In this document: piece by piece, positions 5,494-8,916 of the stretch
Position numbering within the stretch: position 1 is the first letter of the stretch
Layout: each line of letters begins with the position of its first letter
Assembly: GCA_947063675.1 (NCBI GenBank)
Contig: CAMSTM010000016.1
Coordinates: 1-36,710, forward strand
Length of the DNA stretch: 36,710 bases
Direction: 5' to 3'
From: an uncultured Lachnospiraceae bacterium
Lineage (GTDB): Bacteria; Bacillota; Clostridia; Lachnospirales; Lachnospiraceae
Made by a program: the position numbers and the translations under genes
The notes under the pieces: generated by a model
What the model was told of the DNA's origin: nothing
Database searches by the model: none
Seen by the model: the letters and a program-made list of their open reading frames with translations, nothing else

Positions 5494-6537
5494 CTACATT
5501 TTTAATATTTCATCCTGGCCCGGACGTCCCAGATACCTGATTTCTTCTCCGTTTCTGACAATCTTGTCATTTCCAGAATCCATACTTCCGATAACGGCAG
5601 AAAAAATCCCTGCTTCTGCAAGCGCGCCTGTAAGCCCGGCTCCGTCTGCCGTTACCATAAGCAGAGCGCCGCCGGATAAAAGCTCATAAGGATTTAAACC
5701 GAAAAACTCGCACACTTCAATCGTTTCCTGTCTTACGGGAATCTTTTTCAAATCTACGCAAAATCCCATCCCCGCCTTTTGGGATAATTCCCACAATGCA
5801 CCGAAAACGCCGCCGTATCTTAAGTCGTGCATTACATAAGCACCCTGTTTAAGGGCAATCTCCGCCTCCAAAGCCACGGACAGAAATTTTTCCTGCGCCT
5901 TTGCTTCACTGACAAGCCTTACCGGATATCTCGTCAAAAGCTCTTTCTCCTTCTCCCCGGCAAGAATACAGGTTCCCTCCAGTCCAATCCACTTACTCAT
6001 GACGATATCAAACTTATGGCTTCCTTCCATTTCCCGGTAAATCACCGGCATTTGTTTTTCCGTATCTCCAATCGCCGTCGCCGTGATAACGGGACACCTG
6101 ACATAGCTGCTGACCTCTGTATGCCCGCCTGCAATCTGAACCCCCAGCTCCATGCAGCAACGCTCCGCTTCCCCCATCAGTTCTCTAAGCTGCGCCTCCT
6201 CCGTTTCCACCGGCAAGGTGACAGACAGCATGACAGATACCGGACGCCCTCCTCCCGCCGCAACATTATTGGCGGCTGCCATTACCGCCAGGTATGCCGC
6301 ATTTTTGACCGGAAGATTCACCGTCTCTGTGGAAACGGCCATTATTGCCGCCAGCTCTTTTCCTGCCTTTGCAGTTTTTTCTCCCTGCCCGGTTCCCTTG
6401 CCGTTCTCACTTTCCAACGCCAAAAAGGCGCAGTCATTGCCGACGCCTGCGCCTTTTAATACTTCATTTCTACGATTCTTAATCTTCCCCAACACGGAAC
6501 GCTTTAAGATACTTTCCGGCAGCTTTCCTGTTTTCAT
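5494..6537 (-). CDS. AIR synthase-related (HypE/ThiL-like) protein
   Basis: Cytoplasmic protein of the PurM/HypE/ThiL/SelD ATP-binding superfamily. An N-terminal AIR-synthase domain contains GVGNDCAFLAL and the glycine-rich AAANNVAAGGGRPVSV segment; a C-terminal domain follows from about residue 165 (DIVMSKWIGLEGTCILA). It is closest in layout to HypE, but the C-terminus (DEILKM) lacks the PRIC-type cysteine on which HypE builds the thiocyanate, and no other hyp genes are nearby. Its substrate is therefore unknown. The second ATG (6537) is chosen because GGAGGG lies six bases upstream; the first ATG (6543) directly abuts that site and overlaps the upstream stop as ATGA. It is translationally coupled to the VanW gene. 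Confidence 0.8.
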   Translation of the reverse strand: MKTGKLPESILKRSVLGKIKNRRNEVLKGAGVGNDCAFLALESENGKGTGQGEKTAKAGKELAAIMAVSTETVNLPVKNAAYLAVMAAANNVAAGGGRPVSVMLSVTLPVETEEAQLRELMGEAERCCMELGVQIAGGHTEVSSYVRCPVITATAIGDTEKQMPVIYREMEGSHKFDIVMSKWIGLEGTCILAGEKEKELLTRYPVRLVSEAKAQEKFLSVALEAEIALKQGAYVMHDLRYGGVFGALWELSQKAGMGFCVDLKKIPVRQETIEVCEFFGLNPYELLSGGALLMVTADGAGLTGALAEAGIFSAVIGSMDSGNDKIVRNGEEIRYLGRPGQDEILKM

Positions 6538-6539
6538 AA

Positions 6540-8150
6540 TCATCCCTCCGGTTCTGCTTCCGCCGGAGCCTCCGGTGCCGGTGCCGCATCTGCAGGCGGA
6601 GCCCCTTCTGCCGGTGCCCCTTCCCCGGGTACGCCTTCCGCCGGAGGCGCCGGCAAAGGAGGCGCTGCTTCCCCGGTACTGAGTGCAGCGACAACGCTCT
6701 TTACATAATCAATACTGTTCGTACCGATTGCCTCCATCATCTGATTATAGATATTAGGGTCTTCCGTCGCCACGCCCACTGTCGCCGTCCGGGGGGTCAT
6801 CTTGTAAGAGCTGGAATTCACCTGCTCCCGGCTGACCTCCTGCCCGTTCTCCTTCACAACCTTCCAGAGATTCGCCTTATAGCCGATATGAGCCGACTGA
6901 ACCGATATAGAGCCCACAGGCAAAGACGCGTTGGGGTAAATCACCTCCGTGTCAGGATAGGTCTGGCTGATAACCTCGCTCTCATATATCACCTGACGGC
7001 TGCTTTCTCTGGTTTCCATTCCATATATGGTAAATGTGATATTCTTATCATCCGTGCTGATTCCTTCAATATAAATCGGCGCTTCCGTATTATTGATAAA
7101 TTTGAAGTCCTTTCCGGCGGACTCCGCAATAGCCGCGTCGGCGGAAGGATTCACATAAGTAACTATCATGGAATGATTGTGTCTCTCCGTGACCTCAAGC
7201 TCAGACAAAAGCACCGCGTTATAAAGCGTTGTGGATACCTGGCAGATACCGCCCCCCAGGCTGTCCACCACCTGACCGTTCAGGTAAGAAGCCGCCATAT
7301 AATAGCCGTTTGATTCCGTAAAAGGCGATACCGCCTCGTAGGTTGAAAACTCATCCCCGGGATAAATGGTCGCTCCGTTAATCAGCGCGCACCCGTTGCG
7401 CACGTTAGCGCTTCTGGAAGGCCCTGAAGTCCGAAAGCTTGTGGTAAAGGTGCCAAGTACATCCTTCACTTTGGCAAGCTCCTCCTCCGCTCCCCTTGGT
7501 TCGTCCACAATAACCTCCAATTGGAGGGAATCGTCTCCTCTGTTCCATTCACTGTTAAAGAAATCGCTGATGAGCGTCTCGCAGGCCACCTCGTCCACTA
7601 TCAGCCCGGTCTGCCCCGGATTCACCACAAATCCGCCGCCCTCCCTGCTTAAAGTAGCGTCCGCCGCTTCCACATTATATACAGAGCACTGCTCGGCCAG
7701 AATGGTTTTAACCAATTCTTTATCCACCGACAGCTCCAAATCAAATACCTTATTTTCATATTGAAGGTCTTTAGCCGCTTTATACCTCTGTACGATATTG
7801 CCGCTCCGGCCGATTTGGGCCGCTTCCTCCACAACCGTCGGATTGTTCCAGCTAAGTCCCACATCAGCCGGAGTAATCTCCACGGAATTTCCATCCATAA
7901 TCATCAGGGTAATCACTTTCTCCGACAGACCGTCCACGTAATTCTCCACCATGGCCTTTGCATCGCTGACGGTCATTCCCCCCAGGGACATATCCTCAAT
8001 ATAAATGCCGGGTAAGATGGAGTCCTCCTCCTGCGCTTTCACCTCTGTCCCCCAAAGCCCTGTCAAAACTGCCGCCGTTAAAAAGCAGGCTGCTCCCCTC
8101 AATAATTTCTTCATAACCTTCCTCATTTCCACATTTCTGTTGCTTACCAT
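6540..8150 (-). CDS. VanW-family secreted protein with peptidoglycan-binding-like domain
   Basis: Exported protein of 536 aa. The signal peptide is plausible (MKKLLRGAACFLTAAVL, likely cleavage after EVKA near residue 40). A PG_binding_4-like region covers roughly residues 60-200, and the VanW domain follows at about 230-370 with its signature GGGICQVSTTLYNAVL and RHNHS. The C-terminus is a low-complexity Pro/Ala/Glu/Gly tail of about 45 residues, perhaps a wall-spanning spacer. VanW proteins are named after a vancomycin-cluster gene, but most, like this one, are not in resistance clusters and their biochemistry is unsettled. The start at 8150 uses TTAAGG overlapping the stop of the preceding small ORF, which suggests coupling; internal ATGs up to MKKLLRG are alternatives. 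Confidence 0.88.
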   Translation of the reverse strand: MVSNRNVEMRKVMKKLLRGAACFLTAAVLTGLWGTEVKAQEEDSILPGIYIEDMSLGGMTVSDAKAMVENYVDGLSEKVITLMIMDGNSVEITPADVGLSWNNPTVVEEAAQIGRSGNIVQRYKAAKDLQYENKVFDLELSVDKELVKTILAEQCSVYNVEAADATLSREGGGFVVNPGQTGLIVDEVACETLISDFFNSEWNRGDDSLQLEVIVDEPRGAEEELAKVKDVLGTFTTSFRTSGPSRSANVRNGCALINGATIYPGDEFSTYEAVSPFTESNGYYMAASYLNGQVVDSLGGGICQVSTTLYNAVLLSELEVTERHNHSMIVTYVNPSADAAIAESAGKDFKFINNTEAPIYIEGISTDDKNITFTIYGMETRESSRQVIYESEVISQTYPDTEVIYPNASLPVGSISVQSAHIGYKANLWKVVKENGQEVSREQVNSSSYKMTPRTATVGVATEDPNIYNQMMEAIGTNSIDYVKSVVAALSTGEAAPPLPAPPAEGVPGEGAPAEGAPPADAAPAPEAPAEAEPEG

Positions 8151-8155
8151 TTGCC

Positions 8156-8263
8156 TTAATACATAAAAGATGCTATAGTTGGTATAATCATAGCAAGCAC
8201 AAGCAAAATGATAATCACTCCTGAAACAACTTTTTTGCTTTTTTTATTATAAAAATTAAACAT
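8156..8263 (-). CDS. 35-aa single-pass membrane protein (Prli42/DUF4044-like)
   Basis: This small ORF is missing from the supplied track. It reads MFNFYNKKSKKVVSGV, then a hydrophobic helix (IIILLVLAMIIPTIASF) and the stop TAA. A very strong ribosome site, CGGAGGAACAAA, precedes the ATG. A short lysine-rich cytoplasmic N-terminus and one C-terminal membrane helix are the layout of the Prli42/DUF4044 miniproteins, of which Prli42 in Listeria tethers the stressosome. That assignment rests on size, topology and a KK...V...LAM-like pattern only. Its stop is 5 bases before the VanW start, so it is the first gene of that operon. A plausible promoter lies at 8298-8326. Confidence 0.72.
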   Translation of the reverse strand: MFNFYNKKSKKVVSGVIIILLVLAMIIPTIASFMY

Positions 8264-8297
8264 TTTGTTCCTCCGATAAATCTCTCTTCGAAAGGAT

Positions 8298-8326
8298 ATT
8301 ATATATGAAATACCCATTTTTTGCAA
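8298..8326 (-). promoter_or_regulatory. Sigma-A promoter for the small-ORF/VanW operon
   Basis: On the minus strand TTGCAA (8321-8326) and TATAAT (8298-8303) are separated by 17 bases. They lie 35 bases upstream of the small-ORF start and overlap the beginning of the divergent gene at 8305. Confidence 0.6.
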
Positions 8327-8916
8327 GTTTTATCATGTTCTGTCTGTGGCTTCTGTACACTCTGCACAGACAGCGCAGCAAGGAAGCAAATTCCGACAAA
8401 GATTTCTGGAAAAGAGAGGCCGCCGCAAACAGCACCCGCCGCAAAAGCCTTGACAATCTCGACTATATCCGAATTCCCTTTGAGGCTCTCCCCATGGATA
8501 CTCTTGCCGATGACCCGGCCGTTGCGGAATACCATGAGACGCTCCGCGAGCTCTCCAAAGAGCCAATCGTAAATTTTACCGGCATCAGCAACACGGATTT
8601 AAAGCTTATGTACGGCGCCCCCAACATAGATATCCTCTCCCGCTATGACCAGCGTTATACTGTGCTCGTCCGCACGCTCCAGAATTTTGCCCAGACTCTT
8701 TATGACAAAGGCTATCTGGACGAAGCCTGCAGGATACTGGAATTTTCCGTCAGTACCCGTACGGATATAAGCGCCACTTACAAGCTGCTCGCCACAATTT
8801 ACCGGGAAAAAGGCGAAACCGAAAAAATTGCCGGGCTGATTCCCGTCGCAAAAGAACTCAACAGCAGTCTGTCTAAGCACATTGTGGCAGCTCTTGAGGA
8901 GTTTCTCCCACAGTAA
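8305..8916 (+). CDS. Membrane-anchored TPR-like protein, function unknown
   Basis: A 203-aa protein with one N-terminal hydrophobic segment (residues 4-19), then a charged linker, and a helical C-terminal half. The C-terminal half (TLYDKGYLDEACRILEFSV and ATYKLLATIYREKGETEKI) looks like one or two degenerate tetratricopeptide repeats. It is therefore probably a membrane-tethered protein-interaction module facing the cytoplasm; no enzymatic motif is seen. The ATG at 8305 is preceded by AAAGGA at good spacing. It is divergent from the VanW operon, with about 40 bases between the two start codons, and the two may be co-regulated. Confidence 0.75.
   Translation: MKYPFFASFIMFCLWLLYTLHRQRSKEANSDKDFWKREAAANSTRRKSLDNLDYIRIPFEALPMDTLADDPAVAEYHETLRELSKEPIVNFTGISNTDLKLMYGAPNIDILSRYDQRYTVLVRTLQNFAQTLYDKGYLDEACRILEFSVSTRTDISATYKLLATIYREKGETEKIAGLIPVAKELNSSLSKHIVAALEEFLPQ

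Follow-up and report, generated by a model that had tools for sequence, protein, structure and literature searches.

The window analysed here is a stretch of 36,710 nucleotides from an uncultured Lachnospiraceae bacterium. An open reading frame (ORF) on its reverse strand (8156–8263, stop codon included) is predicted to encode a 35-aa single-pass membrane miniprotein, an assignment based on the reading frame itself, its conservation in the genus, dN/dS and an AlphaFold2 model. The ORF translates as MFNFYNKKSKKVVSGVIIILLVLAMIIPTIASFMY and then a stop, with a lysine-rich N-terminus and one helix, and a GGAGG ribosome-binding site (8270–8274, reverse strand) lies 6 nt 5' of the ATG. A Shine–Dalgarno (SD)-like motif was found 5' of the ORF in 66 of 77 related loci. 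The first-pass annotation had placed the ORF, its ribosome site, its lysine-rich N-terminus and its single membrane helix correctly. The ATG was constant between species while the length of the in-frame leader was not, so extensions of the frame upstream of it are non-coding, and a longer in-frame reading from a TTG (8326) was rejected for this reason.

The next gene on the same strand (6540–8114) codes for a VanW-family protein with a signal peptide and PG_binding_4, VanW and G5 domains. The VanW domain (PF04294) scored 150.6 bits, over the cut-off, Cys303 and His326 (positions in the longest ORF, of 536 aa) were invariant in 71 of 71 homologues, and a PDB search with the protein matched the G5 domain only. 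The start with an SD in the conserved part of the gene is the ATG at 8112–8114 (GAGGAAGG at 8117–8124), likely the true start, or the ATG at 8124–8126, leaving a gap to the miniprotein gene of about 41 or 29 nt, respectively. The miniprotein gene had earlier been placed 5 bases before the VanW gene; the order holds but the distance does not, having been counted from the ATG of the longest ORF (8150). In C. difficile, VanW domains act as L,D-transpeptidases (CD1436, CD2149; PMC12729407, PMC11986978), an activity that is missing from some VanW proteins (PMC12729407). A third gene (5494–6543, reverse strand), overlapping the VanW stop by 4 nt, encodes an AIR-synthase-related protein (AIRS; HypE/ThiL/SelD-like). 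This protein falls between HypE, ThiL and SelD, all below cut-off, and of the miniprotein's operon neighbours it was the most constant.

The neighbourhood was compared over 80 named loci (Acetatifactor muris, Eisenbergiella, Hungatella, Lachnoclostridium and metagenome-assembled genomes, MAGs). Gene order in these loci ran from nth through a DnaQ-like exonuclease gene and an oppositely oriented TPR gene to the miniprotein, VanW and AIRS, with a radical-SAM gene added upstream and an Lrp-type regulator downstream in a broader sample. VanW lay directly 3' of the miniprotein in 74 of 76 close loci, AIRS was downstream in all 76 loci with room for it, and the TPR gene was divergent from the miniprotein in 65 of 80. 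The conserved order bears out the proposal that the miniprotein is the first gene of a VanW operon, and the conservation beside VanW in Lachnospiraceae that the first-pass annotation had suggested is found in these close relatives.

The divergent gene (8305–8916, forward strand) encodes a membrane-anchored TPR-like protein with no family above cut-off. Its conserved motifs are FWxRE..ANS.R+K and NLTG.TNTDLKL.YG, and it occurs in other families of the order and was lost in at least 15 genera. The promoter claimed earlier for the miniprotein was recovered in full, with a TTGCAA –35 box (8321–8326, reverse strand) inside codons 6–8 of the TPR gene, a 17 nt spacer and a TATAAT –10 box (8298–8303, reverse strand) between the SD and the ATG of the TPR gene, so that the start signals of the two genes overlap physically. 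TPR codons 5–9 (TTT TTT GCA AGT TTT) displayed codon identities of 100, 100, 100, 92 and 100% across 24 species, compared to a mean of 60% for the other 149 scorable codons, of which 1.3% were fully invariant. The promoter is thus under selection, with hardly any synonymous change in the TPR codons that cover its –35 box. Beyond the genus, the promoter pattern was present in 58 of 65 loci with a divergent TPR gene, compared to an expectation of 7 from shuffled sequence. The overlapping start signals of the two divergent genes (8290–8326) make mutual exclusion or antisense control possible.

The genomes compared were mostly drafts or MAGs, and loci were assessed by ORFs and BLAST rather than by annotation. 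The miniprotein ORF was present in 24 of 25 same-genus genomes (the sole genome without it being 59% complete) and was always flanked by the divergent TPR gene and VanW wherever the contig reached. Pairwise dN/dS (NG86) had a median of 0.20 over 226 pairs, with variability at codon positions 1, 2 and 3 of 0.15, 0.06 and 0.24. Conservation of the reading frame and the balance of synonymous and nonsynonymous change, on which the earlier claim of an unlisted gene had been staked, both indicate a genuine gene under purifying selection.

Across Lachnospiraceae, a profile search matched the miniprotein in 258 of 298 genomes and 240 of 280 genera, usually with one copy per genome. Direct inspection of the locus in 20 profile-negative genomes yielded a diverged copy at the expected place in 13, a 31-aa relative at another place in two (both of the same genus) and no copy in five. 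Within one genus, 16 genomes of which were sampled, the miniprotein was unmatched in eight and two more had weak matches inside large ORFs only; being undetected in most of these genomes, it is not a universal requirement.

Other families of the order carry short lysine-rich ORFs with a transmembrane (TM) segment, found at weak E-values, that lie immediately behind a UvrD-like helicase gene, ahead of VanW, AIRS or TPR, or both, and the neighbours in common support their homology to the miniprotein. At seven loci in these families the miniprotein ORF follows a UvrD-like helicase gene within about 250 nt, usually <60 nt. Most matches of a class-wide profile search were to large proteins, at their N-terminal export or TM segments (M23 peptidases, a PDZ protease and other exported proteins), and the miniprotein was never found fused to a larger protein. 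As the profile also matches export segments, no homology is claimed outside the order, where short lysine-rich TM ORFs are also present at other conserved loci. Conserved 25–35-aa ORFs with a K/R-rich part, a TM segment and a similar AM/SM motif occur at other fixed loci in other clostridial families (two loci after obgE/YhbY genes and five others), and these are possibly further members or convergent.

Among 90 non-redundant family members, conserved residues were N3, K8, K/R10, S14, I17, I18, L21, V22, A24, M25 and P28, and the C-terminal end was variable. Conservation within the helix followed an alpha-helical periodicity (peak at 95 degrees; permutation P = 0.007), AlphaFold2 gave a single helix at residues 7–34 (mean pLDDT 86), and the positive-inside rule predicts an N-in/C-out topology. 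The periodic conservation, the variable C-terminus and the modelled helix are more in keeping with a small subunit that packs by its helix than with a leader peptide, a secreted signal or a toxin, although helix faces can be conserved for causes besides partner binding. The reading we prefer, with a probability of about 55%, is that the miniprotein is a single-pass inner-membrane protein that packs its conserved helix face against a partner, has a role in the envelope and is co-transcribed with VanW. A housekeeping-type promoter would drive it as the first gene of a miniprotein–VanW–AIRS operon; its lysine/arginine-rich N-terminus would stay cytoplasmic, its helix of ~22 residues would cross the membrane and a few residues would end outside. 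The conserved face (S14, I17/18, L21, A24/M25, P28) would then pack against a larger membrane protein, or against itself, and so modulate or stabilise an envelope complex. The data show that the gene is conserved, that its promoter is selected, that the operon order is kept and that the miniprotein is independent of VanW and TPR; translation, helix and topology are predicted, and we infer the helix-packing partner and the envelope role. The latter is plausible because the neighbouring VanW protein combines VanW, PG_binding_4 and G5 domains with an invariant Cys and His, and C. difficile VanW domains are L,D-transpeptidases; co-transcription with a protein of a domain family that includes such enzymes would suit cell-wall upkeep.

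No neighbour is obligatory for the miniprotein. It was kept in eight genomes without VanW genome-wide (PF04294, E ≤ 1e-5), one of which lacked TPR as well, the TPR family was missing in 15 miniprotein carriers of Lachnospiraceae, and four carriers outside Lachnospiraceae gave no AIRS match at E ≤ 1e-20. In the genus sampled with 16 genomes, a copy lay at the VanW locus in two genomes and behind a PatB-like aminotransferase gene in four, never both, and the remaining genomes had no miniprotein or weak matches within large ORFs. At four loci of this genus, the relative behind the PatB-like aminotransferase gene was 30–31 aa long and not at the VanW locus. Incomplete genomes could cause single absences of a neighbour but not the whole pattern. 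As VanW, TPR and AIRS are each absent somewhere while the miniprotein persists, its essential partner is probably encoded elsewhere in the genome. A broader reading, in which the miniprotein, present order-wide in single copy and so far missed by family databases, serves a core envelope machine of Lachnospirales as a small regulatory subunit and does not depend on VanW, TPR or AIRS, is offered tentatively, at well short of even odds.

The absences of VanW weigh against a dedicated partnership with it, in which the miniprotein would be an accessory subunit or membrane anchor that either brings the secreted VanW enzyme to the membrane or restrains it there. Such a role would suit the adjacency in 74 of 76 close loci, the presence of the miniprotein beside VanW in several further families of the same order, and the signal peptide of the neighbouring VanW protein, which looks cleavable, in place of the membrane anchor that C. 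difficile VanW enzymes are described as having (PMC12729407). However, the eight genomes without any VanW domain retain the miniprotein, which is thus not lost when VanW is lost, one genus has the VanW locus without the miniprotein and a similar ORF elsewhere, and the miniprotein also accompanies VanW proteins with their own TM segment. The link to VanW suggested by the first-pass annotation is real without being obligatory, while the dedicated partnership is doubtful and we consider it unlikely.

Still less probable is a diverged Prli42/DUF4044 miniprotein that tethers a stress-sensing complex to the membrane. The resemblance noted earlier is real in size and layout, but neither the Prli42 HMM (NF033880; curated cut-off 27.5 bits) nor the DUF4044 HMM (PF13253; gathering cut-off 21.8 bits) matched the ORF even at E ≤ 10, and each exceeded its cut-off in one control genome. 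Among 28 relatives, sub-cutoff matches were obtained in three for Prli42 (best E 0.014) and in one for DUF4044 (E 0.04), a level that many unrelated TM models equalled, and we assign the miniprotein to neither family. When the ORF and the 28 relatives were scanned against Pfam and NCBIfam, the matches were generic TM ones only. We rate the miniprotein as a new family, without a Pfam or NCBIfam model, of a known kind, the single-pass membrane miniproteins; unnamed smORF clusters in published microbiome catalogues may already include it. Small-peptide proteomics in Blautia mainly targeted soluble proteins, and VanW is not mentioned in the main text of that work.

Two further readings are both improbable to a greater degree. 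As a leader peptide, the ORF would regulate the downstream VanW gene through its translation rather than its product, consistent with its place as first ORF of the operon, 29–41 nt before VanW; the strongest constraint nevertheless falls on second codon positions, the protein is conserved across an order, and there are genomes that keep it at a different locus or have no VanW. A signal-peptide-like precursor of a secreted peptide signal would share the lysine-rich and hydrophobic layout, and the class-level profile also matches N-terminal export segments of secreted proteins, but conservation is lowest in the part that such a precursor would release and sits within the helix. Least probable of all is a type I toxin-like hydrophobic peptide under antisense control by the divergent TPR transcript, since type I toxins are sporadic and multicopy whereas this protein, although small, hydrophobic and overlapped at its promoter by the TPR gene, occurs at about one copy per genome in a syntenic operon position in most genera, and 15 carriers have no TPR gene.

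Lachnospiraceae are among the main human gut bacteria. A miniprotein that most of their genera keep, and that has a fixed motif and a promoter under selection and no Pfam or NCBIfam model, offers a clean target for small-protein biology. Should it modulate wall cross-linking or another envelope machine, that process would be opened to genetics in little-known organisms.

Compared to known systems, the nearest enzymatic likeness belongs to the neighbouring gene and not to the miniprotein. The neighbour shares VanW and PG_binding_4 domains and an invariant Cys and His with the C. difficile VanW L,D-transpeptidases and differs from them in its signal peptide and G5 domain, its own activity being putative. 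Prli42, the stressosome anchor that binds RsbR, has the same layout as the miniprotein (about 31 aa, a basic N-terminus and one TM helix), as does DUF4044 (about 33 aa, lysine-rich, one TM helix); unlike Prli42, the miniprotein is unmatched by the Prli42 HMM and carries a family motif of its own, NKKTKK...S..I...L..AM..P. Although it scores above cut-off with no library model, it resembles small regulatory membrane proteins in general in its single helix and its predicted co-transcription with an envelope gene.
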